This document shows positions 24,122 to 45,337 of a stretch of 64,000 nucleotides of DNA, in pieces. Location of the stretch: positions 1-64,000 of the forward strand of contig JAQGDQ010000576.1 in NCBI GenBank assembly GCA_030141605.1, read 5' to 3'. Under the pieces are notes generated by a model. It did not search any database and was not told the origin of the DNA. It worked only from the letters and a program-made list of their open reading frames with translations. This DNA comes from Tubiluchus corallicola (lineage: Eukaryota; Priapulida; Priapulimorpha; Priapulimorphida; Tubiluchidae). Within the stretch, counting starts at the first letter, position 1, and each line of letters opens with the position of its first letter. The position numbers and the translations under genes are program-made.

Positions 24122-24289
24122 CTAAAAAAGAAAAAAATGCGTATTAAGACTAACGAATGTTTGAAAAATTCCTCCAGAGTTCACTCGGATAACAAATCGA
24201 TGAGAAAAGCATAACATCAAGGTAAATTCTGCGAGTCCTGCACATTGTCATCCATTTCTTTTTCTTCAGTTCCATCTGTTGTAAACATT

Positions 24290-24800
24290 GAGGCATTAAC
24301 GTTTATTAGAGTATTTCACCCACTCCTACCCGCAGATAATAGCGTAAGTTCTTCTACTTCCTAAAGATAGATTTGGTTGAAGTTGTTGAACATCTTTATT
24401 TATCTTAGTTATTCAAGTTGTTTTTGGTTTGTCACAAGGTTTTAAGGCTTCCTTTAAGGCGATTCTTACTGGTGCTTCATTTGGTAATCTTAGATGGCGT
24501 CCAAGCCATCTTATTAACCTTGATTTTTGAACTCCCAAGAAATTTCTTTCGTTCTGCTGCATAAATCTTCATTTTTGAATATGTATGGCCATCATATTTT
24601 TAAAACTTTCCTTGGAAGACTTCTATGAAATGTGTCAATCTGCTTTTCTTAAGTAACCATTAAATCCCATGTTTCACTGCTGTACATAAATATGCTGGTA
24701 ATGTAAGCATTAAATAATCCAAGTCTTATGTACGTTCTTGTGTTGAAGAAAAGCATGCATTTTTGCTTGCTACTTTCTACTTTTAATATCACATTCGGTG
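24290..24800 (-). pseudogene. LINE reverse-transcriptase C-terminal remnant
   Basis: The minus-strand conceptual translation, broken by stops and shifts, shows FNAYITSIFMYSSETWDL, then WPYIFKNEDL and a region corresponding to RWLGRHLRLPNEAP. These resemble the C-terminal part of non-LTR retrotransposon reverse transcriptases (LLRKIL..W..NE.LY..T, RLRWLGHLLR). It is decayed and 5' truncated. Confidence 0.7.
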
Positions 24801-25055
24801 TTTATGTCTAGTATTTAATATTATGATCTATGAGCTTCTCAAAAGCGAGTTATCTTCCCACTCTTGATTAGTGCCTTTGTCATACCGAAAAGGTTTCATG
24901 ACCTACACTGTTTGCAAGAAACTGCAAATTACCATAATGACATGCAGCTAATGGATGATAATATTACATGCATCGTTATTTGCCATTTTCTTTGTTGAAG
25001 TACATAGATTTGCGTAGATAGTACAAACAAGTCATAACTCAGGCATTACCTCTTG

Positions 25056-25091
<36 letters not shown>

Positions 25092-25258
25092 GAATGTTCA
25101 TTATTATAACTGTATGACATGTAAATGATAGGTATATACTCGTTTGCATTTTGACTGCAGAAATTGTGTAGTACAACTTCTGTCAAGCGTGTAATTCTTG
25201 AAAAAAATTAGTAATCAAACAGCAAAAGAGCTTGATGATTTTGTGTATCGATCTTAGA
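24801..25258. other. UFSP2 intron with CA/TA microsatellite
   Basis: Contains (CA)n(TA)n at about 25056-25091. No other feature recognised. Confidence 0.5.
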
Positions 25259-25760
25259 GTTTATGTAGTCTACCTTCTGTACGGTACATTGCTTTTGTGC
25301 ATGCTGTTCAAGTGTGTCTGCAAATAAATTGAAAAGGCAATGCGAGACAGTTTATGTAGTTTATCTTCTGTACGGTACATTGCCTTTGTGCATGCTGTTC
25401 AAGTGTGTCTGCAAATAAATTGAAAAGGCAATGCGAGACAGTTTATGTGGTTTATCTTCTGTACAGTACATTGCCTTTGTGCATGCTGTTCAAGTGTGTC
25501 TGCAAATAAATTGAAAAGGCAATGCAAGACAGTTTATGTAGTTTATCTTCTGTACGGTACATTGCCTTTGTGCATGCTGTTCAAGTGTGTCTGCAAATAA
25601 ATTGAAAAGGCAATGCAAGACAGTTTATGTGGTTTATCTTCTGTACGGTACATTGCCTTTGTGCATGCTGTTCAAGTGTGTCTGCAAATAAATTGAAAAG
25701 GCAATGCGAGACAGTTTATGTGGTTTATCTTCTGTACGGTACATTGCCTTTGTGCATGCG
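25259..25760. repeat. 91-bp tandem repeat, ~5.5 copies
   Basis: The unit includes TTTATGTAGTTTATCTTCTG, TACGGTACATTGCCTTTGTG, CATGCTGTTCAAGTGTGTCT and AAATTGAAAAGGCAATGCGAGACAG. The TTGCCTTT and AAAGGCAA strings can pair within one unit. It is unrelated in sequence to the other 91-bp array at 20995. Confidence 0.93.
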
Positions 25761-26193
25761 AGACACCAGCAGTGGTAAAACGAACTGAAAGCTGAATGCA
25801 TGATTGCTTAAGACAGCCACAGCAAGTGAATGGGTTAATTTGCAAAATGGAAATTGGCAAACTGTTGAATGATTTAAATAAGTGTATGAGATTTTCTTGC
25901 CGTTATTGTCCAACTTAAGTCCAAACATTGAGAACCTGGCCCAGCTGAAGGAATCATCGAAATTAAGCATAACATTGTAATTTAAATTTCATCTTACGCT
26001 TTAATATACTTGTTTTTACCAGTCTTAACTTATTATTAGAACCCTAAACTGTCCCACATTTAATTTTATGTAATTGTAAAAAAGACCAAGCTGAAGAAGA
26101 CACTACCAGATTGGGAGGCTTCATACGTATCAGTCCAATAAACAGTGACAGAGAGAGAGAGAGAGAAATTAAGTGACTATTTGATAGGATTGA

Positions 26194-26438: not shown

Positions 26439-27290
26439 ATGACTAATCAGACAGGAAATACAACTTACAGCGAAAAACAAGGGAATGTTCTTATTTTGTC
26501 AGTGGTGCTGCATTTACTCTTGGCAGTCCTTGTAACGGTCAGTAATCTTCTAGTTCTGGTTGCAGTTTATAAATACAAAGACCTACAGACTAAAATGAAT
26601 GTGATGGTGGTGTCTCTAGCTGTTACGGATTTGTTAATTGGAATAGTCGTAATTCCAATAAAAATCGCCAACAGAGTGCTAGGTTTAGAATGGCTAAAGA
26701 CGGGCTCGATGGTTGTGTTTATTACTTTGAGTTACGTGAATATTCTGCATCTGTCTGTCATAGCTACTGAAAGATATGTGGCTGTTTTGCATCCGTACAA
26801 GTACAATGTGTACGTTACAAAGAAAACCTTAATTTGCACACTTGCTGTAACATGGTTACTTGGAAACGGTAGCGCATGGATATTCAGTTTATATTTATGG
26901 CATAAAAATGAAGTGATCTCTATGATCCTCACTTTTGAACGCATTTTACTCTTCCACATACCGATGGTTATAATTTGTGTCTTGTACGGGCTAATATGGA
27001 GGGCAGCACGGAGGCAACTAATGAGAATTCATCAAGAAAATCAGCAAACGAGAATAAAAGTATCAGAAATGAAAGCAACAAAAATGCTGACTGCAGTCAC
27101 GCTGGCATTCGTGATTTGCTGGGGTCCTAGGTTTAACGTACCGGCAGACCTCATTTCTTCTGAGAAATTGCGATCGCTTTTTGCATGGCTAGGAAACTGC
27201 AACAGCTTTGTAAATCCATTCATCTATGCAATCCTCAACAGCAAATTCAGAAAAGCCTTTAAGACGATTTGTATGTGCAAAAGTGAATAG
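26439..27290 (+). CDS. Class A GPCR 1, adenosine-receptor-like orphan
   Basis: Intronless receptor of 283 residues from ATG 26439. Seven membrane segments and the class A landmarks are visible: SNLLVL in TM1 (N1.50), LAVTDLL in TM2 (D2.50), ATERYVAVLHPYKY at the end of TM3, TW in TM4, HIP in TM5, FVICWGP in TM6 and NSFVNPFIY in TM7. The N-terminus is short with N-glycosylation sites (NQT, NTT) and the tail is only about 15 residues. It is the most diverged member of the array: residue 7.43 is Asn and 3.32 is Phe. No Asp at 3.32 argues against an amine receptor. CNSFVNPFIYA and FRKAFK resemble adenosine/MECA-group receptors, but the ligand is unknown. It lies antisense within the large UFSP2 intron. 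Confidence 0.93.
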   Translation: MTNQTGNTTYSEKQGNVLILSVVLHLLLAVLVTVSNLLVLVAVYKYKDLQTKMNVMVVSLAVTDLLIGIVVIPIKIANRVLGLEWLKTGSMVVFITLSYVNILHLSVIATERYVAVLHPYKYNVYVTKKTLICTLAVTWLLGNGSAWIFSLYLWHKNEVISMILTFERILLFHIPMVIICVLYGLIWRAARRQLMRIHQENQQTRIKVSEMKATKMLTAVTLAFVICWGPRFNVPADLISSEKLRSLFAWLGNCNSFVNPFIYAILNSKFRKAFKTICMCKSE

Positions 27291-28012: not shown

Positions 28013-28017
28013 TGCAG

Positions 28018-28063
28018 TGAAGTAAGTACGCATGCATGTATGTGTGTATGTATGTATGTATGT
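28018..28063. repeat. GTAT microsatellite, unit 1 end
   Basis: A short (GTAT)n tract at the place where the later units carry long (AAGT)n tracts, followed by the same 'aagttattttgcttcaaaca' boundary sequence. Confidence 0.7.
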
Positions 28064-28526
28064 AAGTTATTTTGCTTCAAACATAAGGTACATAAAACAT
28101 ATTTACAGAGAGATTTTATAAGGTTAATAAAATAAATGTTTACATGTTCGAATTTTGACAAACATACAATGTAAATTGTTAGTTTATTTGTAAGTTTGCC
28201 TAATCTTACATGATGAATGCAGTCCTACATATGTCATGCTTAACTTGACGAATCTCTAAAAATGCATCCATCCTTTGTAACGCGGATAAAAATTTGTACA
28301 AGTCTGCTTTTACAGAGGTGTAGGAATATTTATCCATCCTTTTAGTGCAGATAGCATTTGTTCAGGTCTGCTTTTATAAAGGCATAAAAGACAGAAGACA
28401 GAAGCATTTTATACAAATAGGTTTTTTTGTATCACTTTATTTATGTAACATGAAAGACACTCATATAATGGGGGAGTTATGACAGCAACAGAGTGACAAA
28501 AGTTAGATGATGTTTGACAGAGACAT

Positions 28527-28727
28527 TAACAAAGCAGCAATTACTTCCACACATGTTCCTTTTATTTGCGCTGTAGACCTGTAATGGGTAAGCAAACGTT
28601 TTACCTGCACTAGTGAAAGCTGTGCTCATTGATCGTTATTAGCAAAAACATTCGGTTCGCAGATGAGAATGCAACAACTGTGACTTGTGGTGCTAATTAT
28701 TTTGCTTAAATTTCAAGAAGTATATAA
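28527..28727 (+). promoter_or_regulatory. Conserved block plus TATA-like box, GPCR unit 2
   Basis: The block 28527-28610 contains AACAAAGCAGCAATTACTTC, ACACATGTTCCTTTTATTTG and GGGTAAGCAAACGTTTTACC. TATATAAA is at 28720-28727, about 54 bases before the ATG. Position and conservation across units suggest a shared promoter. Confidence 0.6.
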
Positions 28728-28780
28728 ACAAACACTGTCTATCACAGAACTTTGCAGTTTATAGTAATCTGTTCGAGGCG

Positions 28781-29629
28781 ATGACTAATTTGACAGAGAA
28801 CATCACTTACAGCGAAAAACAAGACAGCGAAATCATTTTAGTGTTGACTCTGCATTTAATCTTGGCCATTCCCATAATTGTTGGTAATCTTCTTGTTCTG
28901 GTTGCTGTTTGTAAATATCAACAGTTGCAGACAAAAATGAATGCAATGGTCGTGTCACTAGCTGTTACGGATTTGTTAATCGGCGTAATCGTTATTCCGC
29001 TAAAAGTAGTCGACATACTGAAAAATTTAAGAGAGTCTAGACCAGTAATGGTTCTAGTAGTTGTGACGTTAACTTATACAAGTATTCTGCACCTGGTTGT
29101 CATAGCTGCTGAAAGATACATGGCTGTTTTACATCCGTACAAGTACAATATATATGTCACTAAGAAAACGATAATTTGTGCACTTGCCATTACATGGCTG
29201 CTTGGGACTATTGCAGCCTGCATTTTCATCTCATTTTCACAGGACAAAAAGGAAATGTTGTTCATTTTCTTCATTTTCGAACGCATTTTACTTTTCTACA
29301 TACCGATAATTATAATTTCTGTTTTGTATGTGTTAATATGGAGGGCAGCACGGAGGCAAGTGTTGAGAATTCATCAAGAAAATACGGAAACCAGTATAAA
29401 AGTATCAGAAATGAAAGCAACAAAAATGCTGACTGCAGTCACCCTGGCATTCGTGATTTGCTGGGGACCTAGATTCATCGTGCCTGGGAGCATTATGTCC
29501 ATTGAAATGCAAATGTTCATCTTCTGGTTGGGGCATTGTAATAGTTTCGTAAATCCACTCATCTATGCAGTTCTGAATAGCAAATTCAGAGAAGCCTTCA
29601 AGAAGATTTGCTTGTGTAAAAATGATTGA
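28781..29629 (+). CDS. Class A GPCR 2, adenosine-receptor-like orphan
   Basis: 282 residues in one exon, starting at MTNLTENITYSEK with two N-glycosylation sites. Motifs: GNLLVLVAVCK (TM1), LAVTDLLIGV (TM2), AAERYMAVLHPYKY (TM3), ITWLLG (TM4), FYIPI (TM5), FVICWGPRF (TM6) and CNSFVNPLIY (TM7); tail KKICLCKND with cysteines suited to palmitoylation. By Ballesteros numbering 3.32 is Val, 3.36 Thr and 7.43 His, as in adenosine receptors, but 6.55 is Pro instead of Asn. There is no Cys at 3.25 and none in ECL2. The in-frame upstream extension of units 3-5 is destroyed here by a 2-base difference, which supports this ATG. The TM4-TM5 segment is nearly the same as in receptor 4. Confidence 0.95.
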   Translation: MTNLTENITYSEKQDSEIILVLTLHLILAIPIIVGNLLVLVAVCKYQQLQTKMNAMVVSLAVTDLLIGVIVIPLKVVDILKNLRESRPVMVLVVVTLTYTSILHLVVIAAERYMAVLHPYKYNIYVTKKTIICALAITWLLGTIAACIFISFSQDKKEMLFIFFIFERILLFYIPIIIISVLYVLIWRAARRQVLRIHQENTETSIKVSEMKATKMLTAVTLAFVICWGPRFIVPGSIMSIEMQMFIFWLGHCNSFVNPLIYAVLNSKFREAFKKICLCKND

Positions 29630-29662
29630 GTTCAGCCATGTTAAAGTGCGTGTACAAGGAAC

Positions 29663-29780
29663 AGTGTTTTTCCGGCTGGAAACAGTAACAGTTTCGTGAA
29701 CCGGTCGTCTATGCAACTATTAACAATAAGTTCAGAACAGCCTTTAAGAAGATTAGCTTGTACAAAAAAACCAACTGTTT
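29663..29780 (+). pseudogene. Fossil TM7/tail copy after GPCR 2
   Basis: About 35 bases after the stop comes a second, decayed copy of the receptor 3' end: AACAGTTTCGTGAACCGGTC, GTCTATGCA, then AATAAGTTCAGAACAGCCTT and AAGAAGATTAGCTTGTACAA. A one-base deletion breaks the NPxxY region. Equivalent fossils follow receptors 3-6. Confidence 0.8.
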
Positions 29781-30618
29781 GATGGGTAATGTTTGTTTGC
29801 TTTTTATGGGCCAATGTCGTGCAGTCGAAGTGCAACCACTGATGCAAAAATAATGACGTCATGTATAGTTTTCTTCAGCAACTGCTGTTAGTACATGAAA
29901 TCTACGTAACCTACTTATAGGCAAATTGTTATTGTACTGTAACTGTAATTGTAAGTGAATAGCATTGCACAATCTGTATTGCACAGTTGTCGCAAATGGA
30001 AGATTTTTTTCATTTTTCATTAGTTACTAGTTGTAATAAAAAATTTCAATTGTGGATGTTAAACTGGACATCAAAATCCTTCATATTGCAAAGTCCTCAA
30101 TTTTACCAGCTGGTCAAAATTGAATGACATGACAATTTAAAATACAACAAAACTGCATGTTTCTGTTAACTATAATTCGTTCGTCTTTAAGTTTACCTAT
30201 TCACTTATTCACCTTTATTCGAATCTTTTGTTTAGCAACAAGTCACCTATTCAAGTTTAAATTGTTTGCTTGTTTGCCCAACGTTACTTTATTATTCCAG
30301 CCCTATGCTGTCCCACATTTAACTTAATGACATTGTGTGAAATAAGACTTAACTGAATCTTATAATCAGCTTCAAAGTCTTTGCAAATCCATGCAAGCAT
30401 GTTTAGTTGCTTGTTGTTTGAAACATATTATGGCTAGACATCTTTTATTAGTTTTACTGAGTGAAGATACAGGAAGGAAGATTTATGTATACAACTCGCT
30501 AATCTAAAAGCACGGAAGGTGGAAGAAGTGATGTGCAGTCTATTAATGGCTTTATTTGTGTCACAACAATAAAATTTTCTCCTGACAGTTCACCTTTAAG
30601 GTCACTTGAGATGTTCAA

Positions 30619-30830
30619 GTAAGTAAGTAAGTAAGTGAGTGAGTGAGTGAGTAAGTAAGTAAGTAAAAAAATAATTAAGTAAGTAAATAATTAAACAAGT
30701 AAGTAAATACGTAAGAAAGTAAATAAGTAAGTGAGTGAATAAGTAAATAATTAAGTAAGTAAATAAATAAATAAGTAAATAAGTAAGCAAGCAAATAAGT
30801 GAGTAAGTAAATAAGAAGGTAAGTAAAAAA
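30619..30830. repeat. (AAGT)n/(AAAT)n microsatellite, unit 2
   Basis: Imperfect tetranucleotide tract of AAGT, GAGT and AAAT. It gives spurious minus-strand Leu/Thr/Tyr-rich open frames. Confidence 0.95.
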
Positions 30831-30831
30831 A

Positions 30832-31234
30832 TACCGTAAACCGCAAATAAGCCTACATCATATAAGCCGACCCCTAAAAGTGCTAAATGGCCAGTTTTTG
30901 CAAAAACCCGTATATAAGCCGACCATCAACTTGTCAATTTTACTCCACACCCAATCAACAAAATTGATCTTTTTGTCACATTTTGTTAATTGGTATTTTT
31001 GGTTCATAGAATTTTTTACTATAAAGATGTAAAATGCTTACTTTTATGTTACATACTAGAAGAAATTATACATTGGTGACACACAACCAAATAAAGAGTC
31101 GATAGCGATGAAATGTGGCTGGAAAATTGGCATTAGTGTCTGTCCTTGTTCATTTTGTATGCGCATATAAGCCGACCCTCATTTCAGTATTGTATTTATA
31201 GTTCTAAATTCGGCTTATATGAGTATATACGGTA
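30832..31234. mobile_element. Mariner-like MITE inside the unit 2 microsatellite
   Basis: Ends TACCGTA and TACGGTA with subterminal AATAAGCC and GGCTTAT; the interior repeats ATATAAGCCGACC. It is present only between receptors 2 and 3, so it inserted after the array had formed or escaped copying. Confidence 0.75.
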
Positions 31235-31683
31235 CGTAAGTTATTTTGTTTCAAACACAAGGTTAAGAAAGCATATTTACAGCGAAACACTTAAATTTAC
31301 AGAAATTATAAGATTAATAAAATAAATGTTCACAAGTTAGCATCTTGTACAAAATACAGTAAATTATAAGTCATAAATTTATCTAATCTGACCTTATGAG
31401 CCCAGCCCTATATTGTCTGCAAAAAGATTCATCCATCTTTGGCAACTGGGATAAAAAATTTGCAAGTCTGCTTTTACGGCCGAGTAAAAACATTTATCCA
31501 TCCTTTTAGTGCAGATAACACTCATACAAGTCTGTTTTCATGAAGGTATAAAAAGCAGAAACATTTTATACAAAACACTTCTATGTATCACTTTATTTAT
31601 GTAACTTGAAAGGCAATCATATAATGGGGGATTTATGAGAGCAAAAGAGGAACAAAAGTTAGATGGTGTTTGACAGAGACATT

Positions 31684-31884
31684 AACAAAGCAGCCATTAC
31701 TTCCACACATGTTCCTTTTATTTGCGCTGTAGACCTGTAATGGGTAAGCAAACGTTTTACCTGCACTAGTAAAAGCTGTGCTCCTTTATCATTATCAGCA
31801 AAAACATTTGACTCGCAGATGAGAATGCAATAACTGTGACCTGTCGTGCTAATTATTTTGCTTAAATTTCAAGAAGTATATAAA
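31684..31884 (+). promoter_or_regulatory. Conserved block plus TATA-like box, GPCR unit 3
   Basis: The block 31684-31766 reads AACAAAGCAGCCATTACTTC and so on, as in unit 2. TATATAAA is at 31877-31884, 55 bases before the ATG. Confidence 0.6.
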
Positions 31885-31938
31885 CATAAACACTGTCTAT
31901 CACAGAAATTTGCAGTTTATCGTAATCTGTTCGAGGCG

Positions 31939-32787
31939 ATGACTAATTTGACAGAGAACATCACTTATAGCGGAAAACAAGACAGCGAAATCATTTTAGT
32001 GTTGACTCTACATTTAATCTTGGCCATTCCCATAATTGTTGGTAATCTTCTTGTTCTGGTTGCTGTTTGTAAATATGAACAGTTGCAGACAAAAATGAAT
32101 GCAATGGTCGTGTCACTAGCTGTTACGGATTTGTTAATCGGCGTAATCGTTATTCCGCTAAAAATAGTCGACATACTGAAAAATTTAAGAGAGTCTAGAC
32201 CAGTAATGGTTCTAGTAGTTATGACTTTAACTTATACGAGTATTCTGCACCTGTGTGTCATAGCTGCTGAAAGATACATGGCTGTTTTGCATCCATACAA
32301 GTACAATATATATGTCACTAAGAAAACGATAATTTGCGCACTTGCCATTACATGGCTGCTTGGGACTATTGCAGCCTGCATTTTCATCTCATTTTCACGG
32401 GATAAAATGGAAACGTTGTTCATTTTCTTAATTTTCAAACGCATTTTATTTTTTCACGTACCAATAATTATAACTTCTGTCTTGTATGGGTTAATATGGA
32501 AGGCAGCACGGAGGCAAGTGTTGAGAATTCATCAAGAAAATCCGGAAACCAGTATAAAAGTATCAGAAATGAAGGCAACAAAAATGTTGACTGCAGTCAC
32601 GCTGGCATTCATGATTTGCTGGGGTCCTAGATTCATCATGCCTGGGAGCATTATGTCCATTGAAATGCAAATGTTCATCTTCTGGTTGGGGCATTGTAAC
32701 AGTTTCGTAAATCCATTCATCTATGCAGTTCTGAACAGCAAATTCAGAGAAGCTTTCAAGAAGATTTGCCTGTGTAAAAATGATTGA
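31939..32787 (+). CDS. Class A GPCR 3, adenosine-receptor-like orphan
   Basis: 282 residues from ATG 31939 (MTNLTENITYSGKQ). An in-frame upstream stretch opens with GTG rather than ATG, so it is not used as the start. Motifs AAERYMAVLHPYKY, FMICWGPRFIMPG and CNSFVNPFIY are present; 7.43 is His. It differs from receptor 2 mainly in ECL2-TM5 (RDKMETLFIFLIFKRILFFH against QDKKEMLFIFFIFERILLFY), while the ECL3 segment GSIMSIEMQMFIFWLGH is the same. The TM6 variant AFMICWGPRFIMPGSIM is shared with receptor 5. Confidence 0.95.
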   Translation: MTNLTENITYSGKQDSEIILVLTLHLILAIPIIVGNLLVLVAVCKYEQLQTKMNAMVVSLAVTDLLIGVIVIPLKIVDILKNLRESRPVMVLVVMTLTYTSILHLCVIAAERYMAVLHPYKYNIYVTKKTIICALAITWLLGTIAACIFISFSRDKMETLFIFLIFKRILFFHVPIIITSVLYGLIWKAARRQVLRIHQENPETSIKVSEMKATKMLTAVTLAFMICWGPRFIMPGSIMSIEMQMFIFWLGHCNSFVNPFIYAVLNSKFREAFKKICLCKND

Positions 32788-32823
32788 GTTCAGCCGTGTT
32801 AAATTGCATCTATTGGGAACAAT

Positions 32824-32938
32824 GTTTTTCAGGCTTGACACAGTAACAGTTTCGTAAACCATTCGTCTATGCAACTGTTAGCAATAAGTTCAGAACAGTC
32901 TTTAAGAAGATTAGCTTGTGCAAAAAACCAAATGTTTG
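32824..32938 (+). pseudogene. Fossil TM7/tail copy after GPCR 3
   Basis: Equivalent to the fossil after receptor 2: AACAGTTTCGTAAACCATTC, GTCTATGCAACTGTTAGCAA and TTAAGAAGATTAGCTTGTGC. It cannot be read as a continuous frame with any receptor. Confidence 0.78.
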
Positions 32939-33771
32939 ACGGTGATGTCTGTTTGTTCTTTATGGGCCAGTGTCATGCAATCGAAGTGCAACCACTGATT
33001 CAAAAATAATGACATCAAGTATAGTTTTCTTCAGCAACTGCTGTTGGTACATGAAATCTACGTAACCTACTTATAGGCAAATTGTTATTGTACTGTAACT
33101 GTAATTGTAAGTGAATAGCATTGCACAATCTGTATTGCACAGTTGTCGCAAATGGAAGATTTTTTTCATTTTTCATTAGTTACTAGTTGTAATAAGAAAT
33201 TTCAATTGTGGATGTTAAACTGGACATCAAAATGCTTCATATTGTAAAGTCCTCAATTTTACCAGCTGGGCAGAATTTAATGACATGACAATTTAAATAC
33301 AACAAAACTGCATGTTTCTGTTAACTATAATTCGTTCGTTTTTAAGTTTACCTATTCACTTATTCACCTTTATTCGAATCTTTTGTTTATCAACAAGTCA
33401 CCTATTCAAGTTTAAATTGTTTGCTTGTTTGCCCAATGTTACTTTATTATTCCAACCCTCTGCTGTCCCACATTTAACTTAATGACATTGTGTGAAATAA
33501 GACTTAACTGCATCTTATAATCACCTTCAAAATCTTTGCAAATCAATGAAAGCATGTTTAATTGCTTGTTGCTTGAAACATAGTATGGCTAGACATCTTT
33601 TATTAGTTTTACTGAGTGAAGATACAGGAAGGAAGATTAATGTATACAACTCGCTAATCTAAAAGCACGGAAGGTGGAAGAAGTGATGTACAGTCTATTA
33701 ATGGCTTTATTTGTGTGACAATAATAAAATTTTCTCCTGGCAGTTCACCTTTAAACTCACTTGATATGCTC

Positions 33772-34070
33772 AAATAAGTAAGTAAGAAAGCAAGTAAATA
33801 AGTGAGTTAGTGAGTGAGTAAGTAAATAAGTAAGTGATTGAGTGAGCAAGTAAATAAGAAAGTAAGTAAATCTGTATGTAAGTGGATAATTAAGTAAGTA
33901 AGCGAGTGAGTGAGTGAATGAATGAGTAAGTGAGTGAGTGAGTGAGCAAGATAGAAAATAAGTATGCAAGTAAGTGAATGAGTAAGTAATTAATTAAATA
34001 TTAAGTAAGGATGAAAGTAAGTTAGAAAGTACATAAGAAAGAGAAGTAACTGAGTAAATAAGTAAGTAAG
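33772..34070. repeat. (AAGT)n microsatellite, unit 3
   Basis: Imperfect AAGT/GAGT tract. Its interruptions ('gattgagtgagcaag', 'ctgtatgtaagtgga') recur in the same order in unit 4. Confidence 0.95.
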
Positions 34071-34579
34071 GTATTTTGTTTCAAACACTAGGTTAAAAAA
34101 CATATTTACAGCAAAACACTAATATTTACAGAAATTATAAGATTAATAAAATAAATGTTTACAAGTTAGCATCTTGTACAAAATACAGCAAATCATCAGC
34201 CATAAATTTACCTAATCTGACCTTATGAACTTAGCCTATATTGTCTGCAAATAGAGTCACCCATCCTTGGTAACTGGGATAAAAATTCGTACAAGCCTGC
34301 TTTTACAAAGGTGTAGAAATATTTATCCATCCTTTTGGTGCAGATAACATTTGTACAAGTCTGCTTTTACAAAGGTGTAGAAATATTTATCCATCCTTTT
34401 GGTGCAGATAACATTTGTACAAGTCTGCTTTTATAAAGGCATAAAAGACAGAAGACAGAAGCATTTTATACATGACACTTCTATGTATCACTTTATTTAT
34501 GCCATCTGAAAAAGGTACTCATATAATGGGGAAGAATCAACAGAGGAACAACAGTTAGATGACTGTTTGACAGAGACAT

Positions 34580-34781
34580 TAACAAAGCAGCCATTATTTC
34601 CACACATGTTCCTTTTATTTGCACTGTAGACCTGTAATGGGTAGGCAAACGTTTTACCTGCACTAGTGAAAGCTGTGCTCATTTATCATTATCAGCAAAA
34701 ACATTTGGTGTGCAGATGACAATGCAATAACTGTGACCTATGGTGCTAATTATTTTGCTTAAATTTCAAGAAGTATATAAA
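34580..34781 (+). promoter_or_regulatory. Conserved block plus TATA-like box, GPCR unit 4
   Basis: Block 34580-34663 and TATATAAA at 34774-34781, 54 bases before the ATG. An extra in-frame ATG lies upstream of the TATA at 34740, so it would not be in a transcript started from this box. Confidence 0.6.
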
Positions 34782-34835
34782 CATAAACACTGTCTATCAC
34801 AGAAATTTGCAGTTTATAGTAATCTGTTCGAGGCG

Positions 34836-35684: not shown

Positions 35685-35720
35685 GTTCAGCCGTGTGAAA
35701 TTGCATCTATTGGGAACAAT

Positions 35721-35836
35721 GTTTTTCTGGCTTGACACAGTAACAGTTTCGTAAACCAGTCGTCTATGCAACTGTTAGCAATGAGTTCAGAACAGTCTTA
35801 AAGAAGATTAGCTTGTGCAAAAAAACCAACTTTTTG
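35721..35836 (+). pseudogene. Fossil TM7/tail copy after GPCR 4
   Basis: Same decayed 3' copy as after receptors 2 and 3, here with AGTCTTAAAGAAGATTAGCT, i.e. a further base change in the FKK region. Confidence 0.75.
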
Positions 35837-36674
35837 ACGTTGATGTTTGTTTGTTTTTTATGGGTCAGTGTCGTGCAATCGAAGTGCAACCACTGATGCA
35901 AAAATAATGACGTCATATATAGTTTTCTTGAGCAACTGCTGTTAATACATGAAATCTACGTAACCTACTTATAGGCAAATTGTTATTGTACTGTAACTGT
36001 AATTGTAAGTGAATAGCATTGCATAATATGTACTGCACCGTTGTTGCAAATGGAAGATTTTTTTCATTTCTCATTAGCTACTAGTTGTAATAAAAAATTT
36101 CAATTGTGGATGGTAAACTGGACATCAAAATCCTTCATATTGCAAAGTCATCAATTTTACCAGCTGGTCAAAACTTAATGACATCACAATTTAAATACAA
36201 CAAAATTGCATGTTTCTGTTAACTATAATTCGTTCATCTTTAAGTTTACCTATTCACTTATTCACCTTTATTCGAATCTTTTGTTTAGCAACAAGTCACC
36301 TATTCAAGTTTAAATTGTTTGCTTGTTTGCCCAACGTTACTTTATTACTCCAGCCCTATGCTGTCCCACATTTAACTTAATGACATTGTGCGAAATAAGA
36401 TTTAACTGAATCTTATAATCACCTTCAAAATATTTGCAAATCAATGCAAGCATGTTTAATTGCTTGTTGTTTGAAACATAGTACAGCTAAACATCTTTTA
36501 CTAGTTTTACTGAGTGAAGATACAGGAAGGAAGATTTATGTATACAACTCGCTAATCTAAAAGCACGGAAGGTGGAAGAAGTGATGTACAGTCTATTAAT
36601 GGCTTTATTTGTGTGACAATAATAAAATTTTCTCCTGGCAGTTCACCTTTAAACTCACTTGATATGCTCAAATA

Positions 36675-36970
36675 AGTAAGTAAGAAAGCAAGTAAATAAG
36701 TGAGTTAGTGAGTGAGTAAGTAAATAAGTAAGTGATTGAGTGAGCAAGTAAATAAGAAAGTAAGTAAATCTGTATGTAAGTGGATAAGTAAGTAAGTAAG
36801 CGAGTGAGTGAGTGAGTGAATGAACGAGTAAGTGAGTGAGTGAGTGAGCAAGATAGAAAATAAGTATGCAAGTAAGTGAATGAGTAAGTAATTAATTAAA
36901 TATTAAGTAAGGATGAAAGTAAGTTAGAAAGTACATAAGAAAGAGAAGTAACTGAGTAAATAAGTAAGTA
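36675..36970. repeat. (AAGT)n microsatellite, unit 4
   Basis: Almost the same interruption pattern as the unit 3 tract, which indicates recent common origin. Confidence 0.95.
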
Positions 36971-37414
36971 AGGTATTTTGTTTCAAACACTAGGTTAAAA
37001 AACATATTTACAGCAAAACACTAATATTTACAGAAATTATAAGATTAATAAAATAAATGTTTACAAGTTAGCATCTTGTACAAAATACAGCAAATCATCA
37101 GCCATAAATTTACCTAATCTGACCTTATGAACTTAGCCTATATTGTCTGCAAATAGAGTCACACATCATTGGTAACTGGGATGAAAATTCGTACAAGAAT
37201 GCTTTTACAAAGGTGTAGAAATATTTATCCATCCTTTTGGTGCAGATAACATTTGTACAAGTCTGCTTTTATAAAGGCATAAAAGACAGAAGACAGAAGC
37301 ATTTTATACAAGACGCTTCTATGTATCACTTTATTTATGCCATCTGAAAAAGGTACTCATATAATGGGGAAGAATCAACAGAGGAACAACAGTTAGATGA
37401 CTGTTTGACAGATA

Positions 37415-37620
37415 CATTAACAAAGCAGCAATTACTTCCACACATGTTCCTTTTATTTGCACTGTAGACCTGTAATGGGTAAGCAAAGTGTTTTACCTGC
37501 ACTAGTGAAAGCTGTGCTCATTTATCATTATCAGCAAAAACATTTGGTGTGCAGATGACAATGCAATAACTGTGACCTATGGTGCTAATTATTTTGCTTA
37601 AATTTCAAGAAGTATATAAA
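37415..37620 (+). promoter_or_regulatory. Conserved block plus TATA-like box, GPCR unit 5
   Basis: Block 37415-37501 with TATATAAA at 37613-37620, 54 bases before the ATG. Confidence 0.6.
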
Positions 37621-37674
37621 CATAAACATTGTCTATCACAGAAATTTGCAGTTTATAGTAATCTGTTCGAGGCG

Positions 37675-38523
37675 ATGACTAATTTGACAGAGAACAACAC
37701 TTACAGCGGAAAACAAAACAGCAAAATCATTTTAGTGTTGACTCTGCATTTAATCTTGGCCATTCCCATAATTGTTGGTAATCTTCTTGTTCTGGTTGCT
37801 GTTTGTAAATATGAACAGTTGCAGACAAAAATGAATGCAATGGTCGTGTCACTAGCTGTTACGGATTTGTTAATCGGAGTAATCGTTCTTCCGCTAAAAA
37901 TTGTCGACATACTGAAAAATTTAAGAGAGTCTAGACCAGTAATGGTTCTAGTAGTTATGACTTTATCTTATACGAGTATTCTGCACCTATGTGTCATAGC
38001 TGCTGAAAGATACATGGCTGTTTTGCATCCATACAAGTACAATATATATGTCACTAAGAAAACGATAATTTGCACACTTGCGATTACATGGCTGCTTGGG
38101 ACTATTGCAGCCTGCATTTTCATCTCATTTTCACGGGATAAAAAGGAAATATTGTTCATTTTCTTCATTTTCGAATGCATTTTACTTTTCTACATACCGA
38201 TAACTATAGTTTTTGGTTTGTATGTGTTAATATGGAGGGCAGCACGGAAGCAAGTGTTGAGAATTCATCAAGAAAATCCGGAAACCAGTATAAAAGTATC
38301 AGAAATGAAAGCAACAAAAATGCTGACTGCAGTCACGCTGGCATTCATGATTTGCTGGGGTCCTAGATTCATCATGCCTGGGAGCATTATGTTCCCTAAA
38401 ATGCGAGAGATCATCTTCTGGTTGGGGCATTGTAACAGTTTCGTAAATCCATTCATCTATGCAGTTCTGAACAGCAAATTCAGAGAAGCTTTCAAGAATA
38501 TTTGCCTGTGTAAAAATGATTAA
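37675..38523 (+). CDS. Class A GPCR 5, adenosine-receptor-like orphan
   Basis: 282 residues from ATG 37675 (MTNLTENNTYSGKQ). Nearly identical to receptor 4 through TM1-TM4, then different: RDKKEILFIFFIFECILLFY and ITIVFGLY in ECL2-TM5, AFMICWGPRFIMPGSIM in TM6 (shared with receptor 3) and its own FPKMREIIFWLGH in ECL3. His at 7.43. The Arg before TM5 found in most copies (FER) is Cys here (FEC). All class A signature residues are present and the tail ends NICLCKND. Confidence 0.95.
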   Translation: MTNLTENNTYSGKQNSKIILVLTLHLILAIPIIVGNLLVLVAVCKYEQLQTKMNAMVVSLAVTDLLIGVIVLPLKIVDILKNLRESRPVMVLVVMTLSYTSILHLCVIAAERYMAVLHPYKYNIYVTKKTIICTLAITWLLGTIAACIFISFSRDKKEILFIFFIFECILLFYIPITIVFGLYVLIWRAARKQVLRIHQENPETSIKVSEMKATKMLTAVTLAFMICWGPRFIMPGSIMFPKMREIIFWLGHCNSFVNPFIYAVLNSKFREAFKNICLCKND

Positions 38524-38559
38524 GTTCAGCCGTGTTAAATTGCATCTATTGGGAACAAT

Positions 38560-38670
38560 GTTTTTCTGGCTTGACACAGTAACAGTTTCATAAACTGGTC
38601 GTCTATGCAACTGTTAGCAATGAGTTCAGAACAGCCTTTAAGAAGATTAGCTTGTGCAAAAAACCAACTG
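38560..38670 (+). pseudogene. Fossil TM7/tail copy after GPCR 5
   Basis: Decayed 3' copy: AACAGTTTCATAAACTGGTC, GTCTATGCAACTG and CCTTTAAGAAGATTAGCTTG. Confidence 0.75.
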
Positions 38671-39507
38671 TTTGACGGGTAATGTTTGTTTGTTTTTTAT
38701 GGGCCAATGTCGTGCAGTCGAAGTGCAACCACTGATGCAAAAATAATGACATCAAGTATAGTTTTCTTCAGCAACTGCTGTTGGTACATGAAATCTATGT
38801 AACCTACTTATAGGCAAATTGTTATTGCACTGTAACAATAATTGTAAGTGAATAGCATTGCATAATATGTATTGCACCGTTGTCGCAAATGGAAGATTTT
38901 TTTCATTTCTCATTAGCTACTAGTTGTAATAAAAAATTTCAATTGTGGATGTTAAACTGGACACCAAACTCCTTCATATTGCAAAGTCCTCAATTTTACC
39001 AGCTGGTCACAATTTAATGACATGACAATTTGAATACAACAAAAATGCATGTTTCTGTTAACTATAATTCGTTCGTCTTAAAGTTTACCTATTCACTTAT
39101 TCACCTTTATTCGAATCTTTTGTTTAGCAACAAGTCACCTATTCAAGTTTAAATTGTTTGCTTGTTTGCCCAACGTTACTTTATTACTCCAGCCCTATGC
39201 TGTCCCACATTTAACTTAATGACATTGTGTGAAATAAGACTTAACTGCATCTTATAATCACCTTCAAAATATTTGCAAATCAATGCAAGCATGTTCAACT
39301 GCCTGTTGTTTGAAACATAGTATGGCTAGGCATCTTTTATTAGTTTTACTGAGCAAAGATACAGGAAGGAAGATTAATGTATACAATTGCTAATCTAAAA
39401 GCAAGGAAGGTGGAAAAAGTGATGTGCAGTCTATTAATGGCTTTATTGGTGTGACAATAATAAAATTTTCTCCTGACAGTTCACCTTTAAGCTCACTTGA
39501 GATGTTC

Positions 39508-39738
39508 AAGTAAGTAAGCGAGTAAATAAGTGAGTGAGTGAGTAAGTAAGTGAGTAAGTAAATAATTATGTAAGTAAATAAATAAGTAAGTAAGTAAATA
39601 AGTAAGTAAATAAGTAAGCAAGTAAATAAGTGAGTGAGTGAGTCAGTAAGTAAGTGAGTAAGTAAATAAGCAAGTAAATAAGCGAGTGAGTGAATAAGTG
39701 AATAAGTAAATAAGAAGGTAAGTAAGTAAATAAGTACG
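39508..39738. repeat. (AAGT)n microsatellite, unit 5
   Basis: Imperfect AAGT/GAGT/AAAT tract. Its interruptions resemble units 2 and 6 more than units 3 and 4. Confidence 0.95.
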
Positions 39739-40156
39739 TAAGTTATTTTGTTTCAAACACAAGGTTAAGAAAGCATATTTACAGCGAAACACTTAAATTT
39801 ACAGAAATTATAAGATTAATAAAATAAATGTTCACAAGTTAGCATCTTGTACAAAATACAGCAAATCACAAGCTGTAAATTTACCTAATCTGACCTTATG
39901 AACTCACCCATCCTTGGTAACTGGGATAAAAATTTGTACAAGCCTGCTTTTACAAAGGTGTAGAAATATTTATCCATCCTTTTAGTGCAGATAACATTTG
40001 AACAAGTCTGCTTTTGCGAAGGCATAAAAGACAGAAGCATTTTATGCAAAACGGTTCTTTGTATCACTTTATTTATGTAACTTGAAAGGCACTCATATAA
40101 TGGGGGAGTTATGAGAGCAACAGAGTGACAAAAGTTAGATGGTGTTTGACAGAGAC

Positions 40157-40360
40157 ATTAACAAAGCAGCAATTACTTCCACACATGTTCCTTTTATTTG
40201 CGCTGTAGACCTGTAATGGGTAAGCAAACATTTTACCTGCACTAGTGAAAGCTGTGCTCATTTATCATTATCAGCAAAAACATTTGACTCGCAGATGAGA
40301 ATGCAATAACTGTGACCTGTGGTGCTAATTATTTTGCTTAAATTTCAAGAAGTATATAAA
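40157..40360 (+). promoter_or_regulatory. Conserved block plus TATA-like box, GPCR unit 6
   Basis: Block 40157-40242 and TATATAAA at 40353-40360, 54 bases before the ATG. Confidence 0.6.
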
Positions 40361-40414
40361 CATAAACACTGTCTATCATAGAAATTTGCAGTTTATAGTA
40401 ATCTGTTCGAGGCG

Positions 40415-41257
40415 ATGACTAATTTGACAGAGAACATCACTTACAGCGGAAAACAAAACAGCAAAATCATTTTAGTGTTGACTCTACATTTAATCTTGTC
40501 CATTCCCATAATTGTTGGTAATCTTCTTGTTCTGATTGCTGTTTGTAAATATGAACAGTTGCAGACAAAAATGAATGCAATGGTCGTGTCACTAGCTGTT
40601 ACGGATTTGTTAATCGGTGTAATCGGTCTTCCAATAAAAACTGTGAACATACTGACAAAAAAGGATAGTCCAGTAATATATCTAGTATTTCTGACTTTAA
40701 CTTATACAAGTATTCTGCACCTGGTTGTCATAGCTGCTGAAAGATACATGGCTGTCTTGCATCCGTACAAGTACAATATATATGTCACGAAGAAAACGAT
40801 AATTTGCACACTTGCGATTACATGGCTGCTTGGGACTATTGCAGCCTGCATTTTCATCTCATTTTCACCGGATAAAAAGGAAATGTTGTCCATTTTCTTC
40901 ATTTTCCAACGCATTTTACTTTTCTACATACCGATGGTTATAACTTCTGTCTTGTATGTGTTAATATGGAGGGCAGCACGGAGGCAAGTATTGAGAATTC
41001 ATCAAGAAAATCCGGAAACCAGTATAAAAGTATCAGAAATGAAAGCAACAAAAATGTTGACCACAGTCACCCTGGCATTCGTGATTTGCTGGGGTCCTAG
41101 ATTCATCGTGCCTGAGGGCATTATGTCCATTGAAATGCAATTGTTCATCTTCTGGTTGGGGCATTGTAACAGTTTCGTAAATCCATTCATCTACGCAGTT
41201 TTGAGCAGCAAATTCAGAGCAGCTTTCAAGAAGATCTGCTTGTGTAAAAATGATTAA
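40415..41257 (+). CDS. Class A GPCR 6, adenosine-receptor-like orphan
   Basis: 280 residues from ATG 40415. It differs from receptors 2-5 mainly at the end of TM2 through TM3, where TVNILTKKDSPVIYLVF replaces the two-residue longer DILKNLRESRPVMVLVV. ECL3 is VPEGIMSIEMQLFIFWLGH with His at 7.43. Motifs AAERYMAVLHPYKY, FVICWGPRF and CNSFVNPFIY are intact. The tail has LSSKFRAAFKKICLCKND. Like its neighbours it lacks the conserved TM3-ECL2 cysteine pair. Confidence 0.95.
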   Translation: MTNLTENITYSGKQNSKIILVLTLHLILSIPIIVGNLLVLIAVCKYEQLQTKMNAMVVSLAVTDLLIGVIGLPIKTVNILTKKDSPVIYLVFLTLTYTSILHLVVIAAERYMAVLHPYKYNIYVTKKTIICTLAITWLLGTIAACIFISFSPDKKEMLSIFFIFQRILLFYIPMVITSVLYVLIWRAARRQVLRIHQENPETSIKVSEMKATKMLTTVTLAFVICWGPRFIVPEGIMSIEMQLFIFWLGHCNSFVNPFIYAVLSSKFRAAFKKICLCKND

Positions 41258-41291
41258 GTTCAGCCATGTTAAAGTGCATCTATTGGGAACA

Positions 41292-41412
41292 ATGTTTTTC
41301 AGGCTTGTGCAATGGGAACAGTTTCGTAAACCATTCGTCTATGCAACTGTTAGCAATGAGTTCAGAACAGCCTTTAAGAACATCAGCTTGTGCAAAAAAC
41401 CAACTGTTTGAC
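41292..41412 (+). pseudogene. Fossil TM7/tail copy after GPCR 6
   Basis: GGGAACAGTTTCGTAAACC, GTCTATGCAACTGTTAGC and CCTTTAAGAACATCAGCTTG form the same decayed copy of the receptor 3' end. Confidence 0.75.
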
Positions 41413-41756
41413 AGGTAATGTTTGTTTGTTTTTTATAGGCCAATGTCGTGCATTCGAAGTGCAACCACTGATGCAAAAATAATGACGTCAAATATAGTTT
41501 CCTTCAGCAACTGCTGTTAAATGGAAGATTTTTTCATTTTTTAGTAGCTATTAGTATAAAAAATTTCAACTGTGGATGGTAAACTAAACATCAGATCCTT
41601 CATATTGCAATGTATGCAGTTTTTCTGGCCAGGCAAAATTTAATGACATCCCAATTAGAATACATTCGTTCATCTGCAAGTTTACCTATTTGCCTGTTCA
41701 CCTTTATTCTAATCACTTTTTTATTATTAAGCTCACTTGTTCAAGTTTAAATTATT

Positions 41757-42247
41757 TTGTTATGGGCTTATTGATTTCTCTGTTTTTTCTAAAGTATTTC
41801 CTGTTTCTTGTTTTGTACAAACTTTCGCCACTAGGTCATTGACTTAGTAATTGCTTGTAACAAGCGGAACCTCATGAATGTCATCTAGTTAAAAAAGCTC
41901 CCTGATGCAGCAAAGTATTTTGCTGTTAAAAAAAGGTAATGAAAAAGCTGACAGAGAGGCAGTAACTTTCGGCAGTCACTCTGTAAACACAGTGTCCTTC
42001 ATACATTCTGTCTCTGGTGAAGTAGGCTTTAAACTGCTTCATCAAAGTTTGGCTAATTGGAAAAGGTTATCTTTTATTGTTCATGTCTCTTATCAAAACG
42101 TTATGGTTGGAACGAAGAAAATAGAAAAGCGATTTAACTTAAAATAAACAGACTTGAACTCTAAACCTGCAGTTCAGTGAATTTTTACCAACGCATGTAC
42201 TGTGAAACGATCGTGGAAGAGAACCATTACAAAACGCCACAATAACA
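41757..42247. other. Unit 6-specific insertion, unidentified
   Basis: Sequence absent from the other units, inserted within the 'caagtttaaattgtttgctt' stretch. It holds an 80-codon plus-strand frame (41905-42147) without recognisable family. No TIR or obvious duplication was seen. Confidence 0.5.
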
Positions 42248-42600
42248 GTTTGCTTGTTTGACCAATGTTACTTTACTATTCCAGCCCTATGCCATCCCAC
42301 ATTTAACTCTATAACATTGTGTGAAAAAGGACTTACACTGCATCTGATAATTGCCTTCAAAATCTTTGCAAATCAATGCAAGCATGTTCAACTGCCTGTT
42401 GTTTGAAACATAGTACGGCTAGACATCTTTTTGTTAGTTTTACTGAGTGAAGATACAGGAAGGAAGATTAATGTATAGAACTCGCTAATCTAAAAGCACG
42501 GAAGGTGGAAAAAGTGATGTGCAGTCTATTAATGGCTTTATTTGTGTGACAATAATAAAATTTTCTCCTGACAGTTCACCTTTAAGCTCACTTGAGATGT

Positions 42601-42957
42601 TCAAGTAAGCAAGCAAGTAAATAAGTGAGTGAGTGAGTGAGTAAGTAAGTAAATGAGAAAGTAAATAATTAAGTAAGTAAATAAATAAATAAGTAAGTAA
42701 ATAAGTAAGTAAATAAGTAAGCAAGTAAATAAGTGAGTGAGTGAGTGAGTAAGTAAGTAAGTGAGTAAGTAAATAATTAAGTAAGTAAATAAATAAATAA
42801 GTAAGTAAATAAGTAAGGAAGTAAATAAGCAAGTAAATAAGTGAGTGAGTAAGTGAGTAAGTAAATAAGAAGGTAAGTAAGTAAATATGTGAGTAAGTAA
42901 GTAAATAAGTAAGTAAGTAATTAAATAATTAAGTAAGCAAGTAACTAAATAGGTAAG
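42601..42957. repeat. (AAGT)n microsatellite, unit 6
   Basis: The longest tetranucleotide tract of the array. Its minus-strand Leu/Thr/Tyr-rich frames are artefacts of the repeat. Confidence 0.95.
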
Positions 42958-42958
42958 T

Positions 42959-43480
42959 AAGTTATTTTGTTTCAAACACAAGGTTAAGAAAACATTTTTA
43001 CAGCGAAACATTTAAATTTACAGAAATTATAAGATTAATAAAATAAATGTTCACAAGTTAGCATCTTGTACAAAATACAGCAATGTTACTTTATTATTTG
43101 TTATTATTTATTATTTGTTTGACCAATGTTACTTTACTATTCCAGCCCTATGCCATCCCACATTTAACTCTATAACATTGGGTGAAAAAGGACTTAACTG
43201 CATCTTATAATTGCCTTCAAAATCTTCGCAAATCTACTTTTTTCGAAGTCGTAAAACACACAAATGTTTAAAAAAAAACATGTTTCTATGCCAGAAGCTG
43301 TTAGCTGAAGGATTAGGAAACTTTATTTTCATAAGGTTCAGCTGTATAAGCTGCAACAGAAATTAGCAATTATCTGACAGCAACAGTAACAAAGTAGTCA
43401 TTACCTCCACACATACTGCTGTTATTTGCCCTATAGGCACTTAACCAGTAAGCAAATATTTTATTATAATTGTGAATACG
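42959..43480 (+). repeat. GPCR tandem unit 7, truncated, no receptor
   Basis: Begins with the unit boundary ('gttattttgtttcaaacaca'), then a partial re-duplication of 42250-42370 ('gaccaatgttactttactat'), then a diverged upstream block at 43386-43464 (AACAAAGTAGTCATTACCTC, CAGTAAGCAAATATTTTA). Nothing resembling a receptor follows. Confidence 0.7.
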
Positions 43481-43735
43481 GTGTATGAACTGTATATTAT
43501 TATATGGTATATTGTATATATATTATATTATACATATTACAGATCTATAGATTTATACATTTAAATCTATACGGCTACGCAAATTTTGAACAGAAATTTC
43601 AGTATGATTTGCAAAATGGTTAACATGTAACCTATTTTTACAGCTAGATGGTACCCATTTTACCAACATTCTAACTGTATGATCAGCATTCCTCAAACCA
43701 AACTGGTGCATATGGTTACATTTCCTGTCTTTAAG
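43481..43735. other. UFSP2 intron, unfeatured
   Basis: AT-rich, with TATAT runs at 43490-43540. No supported gene. Confidence 0.4.
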
Positions 43736-44505
43736 CATCCTTGAGCATTAGAGGTGCCCGCCTTTGAGCATTAGAGGTGGTCATCTTTGAGCATTAGCAG
43801 TGCCCGTTTTTGAACATTAGAGGTGCCCGTCTTTGAGCATTAGAGGTGCCCGCCATTGAGCATTAGAGGTGTTCATCTTTGAGCATTAGCAGTGCTCGTT
43901 TTCGAACATTAGAGGTGCCCGTTTTGAACATTAGAGGTGCTCGTCTTTGATGATTAGCGGTGCCCATCTTTGAGCATTAGAGGTGCCCATCTTTGAGCAT
44001 TAGAGGTGTTTATCTTTGAGCATTAGAATTGCCTGCCTTTGAGCATTAGAGGTGCCCGCCTTTGAGCATTAGAGGTGCCCGCCTTTGAGCATTAGAGGTG
44101 TTTATCTTTGAGCATTAGAGGTGCCCCTCTTTGCACATTAGAGGTGCCCGTCTTTGAGCATTAGAGGTGTTTATCTTTGAGCATTAGCAGTACCTGTCTT
44201 TGAGCATTAGAGGTGTTTATCTTTGAGCATTAGCAGTGCCTGCCTTTGAGCATTAGAGGTGCCCATCTGTGAGCATTAGAGGTGCCTATTTTTGAGCATT
44301 AGAGGTGCCCGTCTTTGAGCATTAGCAGTGCCCGCCTTTGAGCATTAGAGGTGCCCCTCTTTGCACATTAGAGGTGCCCGTCTTTGAGCATTAGAGATGT
44401 TTATCTTTGAGCATTAGCAGTGCCTGCCTTTGAGCATTAGAGGTGCCCATCCTTGAGCATTAGAGGTGCCTATTTTTGAGCATTAGAGGTGCCTGTCTTT
44501 GAGCC
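43736..44505. repeat. ~23-bp minisatellite, ~33 copies
   Basis: The unit is GCATTAGAGGTGCCCGCCTT plus TGA with frequent variants (GTGTTTATCTTTGA, GCAGTGCCTGCC). Variant types recur in blocks, e.g. 'cccctctttgcacattag' at about 44124 and 44353, indicating block duplications. Confidence 0.93.
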
Positions 44506-45337
44506 CATACACGAGATGCAGGTGACCGAGCAGGACTGAACAAGTCATAAGAAATTATAAGTTAGCTTCTAATTTCAGCAGGAAAATCTGCTCATACTTT
44601 CAAAACTGACTTAGAATGTGAATGTGGAGAAAATATGGCGAACATAATAATATTAGACACCACAAGGTGATCACAGAAACTACAAAAACGCAACAACACC
44701 AACCAACTGCAGTTTTTCTCAGAAATAGTCTCATCCTGGCCAGACTACATTTACTGTCGCAGATGCGAGCATTTAATATTTACAGTTTATTAATAATTTT
44801 GATTTGTAGTTTTAAACTTTTTGTTTTTCACTACCACTAAGTCAGTGCTGACATCTGTTTGTACACTTGGAAGTTTCCAATATATGTATGTACTTGCTAC
44901 TGCTATATGTTTGCATGGAACTGGGTCACTTGGCTTCTCTGTGAATAACTACTACTCTTTACTTGGTAGCAAGATGACAGGACAAGCAATAGGCTTAAAC
45001 AGTGGTTTTGTTATAGTAACGTTTTGACTCAGGTGCCATGATATATTGGCTGATGGATTTACTTTAACTTTTGTTTACTACTGTTGATTACGTTTACCAT
45101 TTTCGTGTATATGTGGATTGACTATGAGACTATGATTTTGAGTAAAATACAGATCGCAAAGTTAAACCATGTTTTCAACCAGTGATTTCATCTGTTTAAC
45201 ACGAACATCGCAACTACAAAAACAGTCTGATAAACCTGCCAATGTCGGTTGTTGGCTCTCCCCCAAAACACCCCAGCGACAACTTTAGCGTCACGACGTC
45301 TACTGCATGACATGGGTAGAAAATTATCTAAACATAC
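44506..45337. other. UFSP2 intron, unfeatured
   Basis: Start of the large intron in gene direction. Two short plus-strand frames (44622-44840, 44821-45027) have no family signature. No repeat recognised. Confidence 0.4.

Follow-up and report, generated by a model that had tools for sequence, protein, structure and literature searches.

Six class A receptor genes lie antisense within a single UFSP2 intron of the priapulid Tubiluchus corallicola

Nested genes make up approximately 6% of fly genes, 2.1% of worm genes and 0.5% of human genes, and are frequently antisense to their hosts (PMC3786989). Clusters of paralogues within a single host intron have been described in insects, where TipE-like genes are clustered in CG18675 and GMC oxidoreductase genes lie in an intron of flotillin-2; this nesting is old, being kept in most of the insects examined and lost in silk moth and beetle (PMC3240667). 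Here we describe an arrangement of this kind in a window of 64,000 nucleotides from Tubiluchus corallicola (positions 1 to 64,000 of contig JAQGDQ010000576.1, assembly GCA_030141605.1). Six genes for G protein-coupled receptors (GPCRs), designated R1 to R6, lie on the plus strand within one intron of UFSP2, which is encoded on the minus strand. A search of the open-access literature, by titles and the beginnings of abstracts, found no description of such an arrangement, whether among receptor genes nested in introns or for UFSP2 with nested genes.

Eight UFSP2 exons were mapped on the minus strand, at 53176..53327 (the most N-terminal located), 50175..50277, 47844..47987, 45338..45516, 24023..24121, 20058..20160, 18160..18284 and 15081..15167 (the last coding exon, with the stop codon). 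All were placed by alignment to the mouse UFSP2 structure 3oqc and by in-frame splicing. The located boundaries all have AG and GT as expected. Joined, the exons encode 329 residues of the C-terminal part of the protein in a single open frame whose sole stop is the terminal one; the product is collinear with residues 159–478 of 3oqc (E 1.4e-123). In the C78 peptidase UFSP2 the catalytic roles are played by Cys and Asp-Pro-His motifs. The window protein, assigned to this family by its collinear homology, has a GWGC motif in the exon at 45338..45516 and a DPH motif in the exon at 18160..18284; the 3oqc chain has S at the position of the GWGC cysteine. A second UFSP2-like C78 gene was not seen, C78 matches being found only on contigs C1722, C2043 and C698; those on C2043 and C698 are presumably paralogues of the UFSP1 and ZUP1 types, judging by their features.

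The array-bearing intron (24122..45337, minus strand) is 21,216 bases long, has GT-AG ends, and separates an upstream exon that ends in phase 0 from a downstream exon that begins in phase 0. The upstream exon ends in HREIQQ and the downstream exon starts with ALVDIGDKP, while 3oqc reads hreiqqalvdagdkp unbroken, so that no residues (0) are missing at the 45338/24121 junction and the flanking residues are adjacent in the structure. A first-pass annotation of the window had proposed that these two exons are neighbours around one UFSP2 intron, and splice sites, phase and adjacency in 3oqc agree with it; the junction is probably the one used in RNA. The window has a single run of N, at 16837-17135, outside the intron. 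From the exon coordinates, the seven located introns measure 2898, 2187, 2327, 21216, 3862, 1773 and 2992 bases, so that only the array-bearing intron is large and the other six are 1.8–3.9 kilobases (kb).

Within this intron are six single-exon open reading frames of 280–314 amino acids, all on the plus strand and antisense to UFSP2. The likely start codons are at 26439, 28781, 31939, 34836, 37675 and 40415; the mechanically called frames of R3, R4 and R5 start 93–96 bases further upstream and span a TATA-like motif. With these starts, the receptors are R1 (26439..27290, 283 amino acids), R2 (28781..29629), R3 (31939..32787), R4 (34836..35684) and R5 (37675..38523), each of the last four with 282 amino acids, and R6 (40415..41257, 280 amino acids). 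R1 is a diverged copy, 65% identical to R2, and R3, R4 and R5 are 89–93% identical to R2. None of the six shows a stop in translation or alignment over 280–283 codons, which upholds the proposal that six intact receptors lie antisense in the UFSP2 intron. R1 was identified from its open reading frame, Pfam and alignment, R2 and R6 from open reading frame and Pfam, and R3 to R5 from open reading frame and family search. The three of the six that were submitted to Pfam (R1, R2 and R6) matched 7tm_1 (PF00001) with 130.7–135.2 bits against a cut-off of 30.5.

The motifs (E/D)RY, CWxP and NPxxY are characteristic of class A GPCRs, and the corresponding residues (E111 R112 Y113, C227 W228 P230 and N258 P259 Y262) are invariant across 19 aligned family members. 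A predicted model of R2 is seven-helical, with modest confidence (predicted local distance difference test, pLDDT, 63.9; predicted template-modelling score, pTM, 0.56). Its best PDB match is the beta1-adrenergic receptor 2ycz (E 4e-10, TMq 0.74), and the best 50 matches are adrenergic, dopamine, adenosine, serotonin, muscarinic and histamine receptors. By Pfam match, motifs and fold, R1 to R6 are class A (rhodopsin-like) GPCRs. Aminergic receptors have an aspartate at position 3.32, and a cysteine at 3.25 that is disulphide-bonded to the second outer loop. Position 3.32 was taken as 18 residues before the ERY arginine, with the same count for R1 and an alignment to the D2 receptor. The aspartate is absent, residue 94 being V in R2 to R5 and F in R6, in a related copy on contig C353 and in R1. 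The cysteine is likewise absent: residue 87 is R in R2 to R5, S in R6 and the C353 copy, and K in R1 by count. The second outer loop of the R2 model (153-155) has no cysteine, although there is one at residue 147, where helix 4 ends. As both the aspartate and the cysteine are absent, a monoamine ligand is not implied. The label 'chemoreceptor-like' is plausible for these sequences but unproved.

Self-alignment of the region 28039..43083 (plus strand) revealed tandem repeat units of approximately 2.7–3.2 kb, each consisting of a receptor and flanks with an AAGT/TAAG microsatellite. The start-to-start distances from R1 to R6 are 2342, 3158, 2897, 2839 and 2740 bases. In alignments of at least 1.6 kb the unit copies are 87–93% identical, intergenic DNA included, with lower values in some shorter pieces; the R6 unit has a rearranged 3′ flank. 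From R2 onward the units are similar along most of their length, including the microsatellite, and whole units were therefore duplicated. When the window was searched by tblastn with R2, no further receptor copies were found beyond five C-terminal relics of 21–26 codons downstream of R2 to R6, on the plus strand: a decayed duplicate of the receptor C-terminus at 29689-29766 after R2, and decayed C-termini at 32850-32927 after R3, 35747-35821 after R4, 38598-38660 after R5 and 41319-41396 after R6. These relics were passed on with the duplicated unit.

R1 to R6 and the C353 copy form a clade with support of 99/98 when compared with 12 other family members. This clade and the duplicated units bear out the earlier suggestion that one tandem group was amplified inside the intron. 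Synonymous divergence (dS) between R1 and the rest is 0.70–0.80, with a ratio of non-synonymous to synonymous divergence (dN/dS) of 0.27–0.33; among R2 to R6, dS is 0.04–0.14 and dN/dS is 0.29–0.94. In a tree of coding DNA, R4 and R5 are grouped with support of 97/95. On these sequence comparisons the first split, between R1 and the ancestor of R2 to R6, is old, and the five copies R2 to R6 are young. The simplest reading would be that the UFSP2 intron already held a founder when R1 split off, and that expansion took place there. Contig C353 carries approximately 3.0 kb of one unit, and the coding sequence of this piece is sister to R6 (support 98/100 from DNA and 93/94 from protein). The possibility that C353 represents the other UFSP2 haplotype was rejected as far as examined: across 18.8 kb of its flanks the best UFSP2 match reached no more than E 6.9, and among the C78 matches there was no second UFSP2-like gene.

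The receptors belong to a large family: 39 contigs carry at least 138 related matches, many of them in tandem arrays; 9 of the 138 have in-frame stops. The count is a lower bound, as only part of 1,027 first-look candidates was scored. The UFSP2 array therefore holds six of at least 138 relatives, and the first-pass annotation was wrong to describe it as a whole family. We examined the flanks of 11 further receptor loci for host genes. Those of C353 and C1442 were scanned in six frames, and those of the other nine by segments selected for codon usage, with limited sensitivity; one flank only was covered for C2114, and the right flank of C2257, consisting of receptor segments only, was left out. 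Low-complexity, repetitive and receptor segments were dropped (L033, 5 of 8; L034, 7 of 13; L035, 2 of 2; L037, 4 of 8; L038, 1 of 9; L040, 1 of 5; L041, 3 of 7; L042, 1 of 3; L045, 6 of 10, with one more shortened; L046, 1 of 7), and all segments were kept for L029, L030, L032, L036, L039, L043 and L044. Hosts were found on both sides at two of the 11 loci, C1442 and C1882, and on one side only at C2289 and C1297, the latter with EGF exons on the right. Within the stated sensitivity no host was found at C353, C1449, C1735, C2257, C2114, C2 or C1944; matches in the C353 flanks (ANAPC4_WD40, TPR_12 and UPF0122) and an EGF match in the C1449 flanks were below the curated cut-off.

Two more host genes with relatives of R1 to R6 in an intron are new here: an ACOX1-type gene, with two copies, and a CAD-type gene, with an intact and a broken copy. 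On C1442, receptors at 186083-186913 (minus strand) and 188742-189581 (plus strand) lie within an intron of 5,355 bases (191343-185989) that belongs to an acyl-CoA oxidase (ACOX1-type) gene on the minus strand. The GT-AG junction is in frame when spliced (KWWPGNMAHLSTHVILMAQL), and the joined exons match acyl-CoA oxidase 1is2 (E 1.3e-63) and peroxisomal acyl-CoA oxidase 1 7q84 (1.4e-63). On C1882, a 10,126-base intron of the CAD-type gene (89417-99542, plus strand; with a GT donor, an AG acceptor and no split codon at either end) contains a receptor with an open frame, 46% identical to R2 (90936-91730, minus strand), and a broken relative covering residues 96–276 only, with an in-frame stop (approximately 93148-93668, minus strand). 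Both are antisense to the host, which was assigned from exons matching the aspartate carbamoyltransferase region of CAD. The residues flanking this intron are adjacent in human CAD. On C2289, positions 303712-311258 contain receptors followed by a CAD exon on the right that is 97% identical in amino acids to the downstream exon of C1882; on the left is a match to CBM_14 (chitin-binding), and upstream CAD exons were not seen in 6 kb. C2289 carries a partial copy of the region around the CAD intron, which may reflect a segmental duplication, a haplotype or an assembly join.

The C1442 copy falls outside the clade of the UFSP2 intron, and the C1882 copy is more distant. The nestings in the three hosts look independent, because the receptors belong to different lineages. 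Introns form a large part of most animal genomes, and no excess over chance can therefore be claimed for two nested loci among 11. It is conceivable that introns of constitutive genes (UFSP2, ACOX1-type and CAD-type) serve as receptor nurseries, in which receptors settle repeatedly and expand in permissive chromatin, with recent duplication of units and diversification on the ligand side, and from which copies are exported to loci such as C353; we consider this unlikely. The array had been called unusual, a description that these two further introns with relatives, together with the paralogue clusters already known from host introns (PMC3240667), weaken.

We consider it highly probable that the locus arose by amplification of an intronless receptor array within the UFSP2 intron, with the receptors individually expressed and the nesting itself probably incidental, as when members of a large, dispersed, intronless family occasionally land in introns such as those of the ACOX1-type and CAD-type genes. 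An intronless class A receptor gene would have become lodged antisense in the intron, retroposition being one mode of arrival that we considered. One old duplication there would have separated R1 from the ancestor of R2 to R6, and later tandem duplication of whole 2.7–3.2 kb units, each with its own upstream region, would have enlarged the intron to 21 kb; one unit is also present outside it, on C353. UFSP2 would tolerate the array because splicing removes it, and each receptor would most likely have a promoter of its own and yield a single-exon mRNA. The receptors would work at the cell surface, with the ligand-facing half diverging between copies as in chemosensory-type repertoires, possibly through diversification of ligands. 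In R2 to R6, TATATAAA starts 60–62 bases upstream of the ATG, and a TATA-type match at –110 to –30 was found in 8 of 20 receptor upstream regions and in 21 of 210 background stretches. The TATA-like motif is suggestive only as a sign of own promoters.

The nesting might instead be functional, if receptor and UFSP2 transcription from opposite strands interact, or if the constitutively open chromatin of UFSP2 forms a domain in which the array is expressed. In favour of this, the six receptors are all antisense in one intron, and transcriptional interference by nested genes has been reported in human cells, where they can disturb splicing and polyadenylation of their hosts (PMC3192792). Tandem duplication reduces the six copies to one orientation event, intronic genes are in any case frequently antisense (PMC3786989), and the ACOX1-type intron contains one receptor in each orientation. 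Moreover, expression of the TipE cluster is poorly correlated with that of its host gene (PMC3240667), and a linked domain is therefore not to be assumed for the UFSP2 array. We regard functional nesting as improbable.

Selection on the young copies bears on whether the receptors are still functional. The modelled helices were used to separate an outer half, predicted to face the ligand, from an inner half facing the G protein, with residues 1–29 excluded. Among R2 to R6 and the C353 copy, 45 of 101 codon columns in the outer half vary in amino acid and 10 vary silently only; in the inner half the numbers are 19 and 20 of 150 columns (Fisher p = 0.0014). The ratio of non-synonymous to synonymous differences (pN/pS), summed over pairs that are not independent, is 1.15 for the outer half and 0.24 for the inner half, or 1.07 and 0.25 respectively when C353 is omitted. 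When the boundaries of the halves were moved by up to 8 residues, p stayed at 0.001–0.05. Purifying selection on the inner half is thus firmly shown; diversification of the outer half is likely, and may be confined to a few blocks. A decaying array, in which non-functional receptors persist only because intronic deletions are unselected, would fit the dN/dS values of up to 0.94 among young pairs and the degenerate C-terminal relics behind five copies. It is very unlikely in view of the six open frames over 280–283 codons, the constraint on the inner half (pN/pS approximately 0.25) and the invariant ERY, CWxP and NPxxY residues. Least probable of all is an assembly artefact in which an array from elsewhere was joined into UFSP2: the units are repetitive and a similar one lies on another contig, but the interval has no N run, the copies differ by several percent and so are not collapsed, no array-free second UFSP2 is present among the C78 matches, and similar nesting occurs at two unrelated genes.

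Several observations weigh against amplification of the array within the intron and individual expression of its members. The flanks of the C353 unit are not sister to R6, so that coding and flanking trees differ and the direction of the C353 move is unsettled; this disagreement suggests exchange between copies. The promoter signal is weak, as five of the eight TATA-type upstream regions are those of the near-identical R2 to R6, and R1 has no TATA-type match at –110 to –30. The outer and inner halves were set after the alignment had been seen, on a model of modest confidence, and the contrast between them is no longer significant (p = 0.13) once two block-like stretches, at residues 71–95 and 235–246, are left out; conversion blocks may lie behind it. 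Finally, when the window and the adjoining 10 kb of the contig were searched with a human probe, nothing convincing was found for the part of UFSP2 that precedes 3oqc residue 159.

Other features were seen in the window. The sole Rfam match, to 5S ribosomal RNA (102.8 bits), lies at 50859-50977 in another UFSP2 intron and adjoins a repeat that recurs at 16483, 46890, 47393 and 57099; it may represent either a short interspersed element derived from 5S RNA or a dispersed 5S gene. ARAGORN found no tRNA genes in the window. An open reading frame with a zinc finger (zf-met) at 58437-59501 contains a 48-base sequence repeated in five exact tandem copies without interrupting the frame, and a 53-base satellite array of approximately 35 copies occupies 4803-6641. 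A stretch at 3716-3814 (minus strand), found as a chance match of the UFSP2 probe, looks ankyrin-like and possibly belongs to a downstream neighbour gene.

One genome therefore presents a young paralogue array in a host intron together with two more nestings of the same family. The UFSP2 array allows direct measurement of how strongly nested copies are expressed and of what it costs the host to splice out a 21-kb intron with an antisense array in it. If nested receptors were expressed more often than their intergenic relatives, this would suggest that host introns influence which members of an expanding family stay active. In marine invertebrates such as Acanthaster planci, families of rhodopsin-type receptors have reportedly been proposed as olfactory; R1 to R6 resemble these as invertebrate GPCRs proposed for chemosensing. 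Like 2mit in the timeless2 intron (PMC3786989), each is a whole coding gene on the opposite strand of a host intron, the difference being that 2mit is a single nested gene and the UFSP2 intron holds an array. The likeness to the GMC oxidoreductase cluster in flotillin-2 (PMC3240667) is that several paralogues share one intron of an unrelated gene; the insect nesting is old, whereas five of the six copies described here are young tandem duplicates, encode class A receptors and have UFSP2 as their host. The UFSP2 array is thus a clear example of a known arrangement, that of nested genes, and not a new kind of thing.

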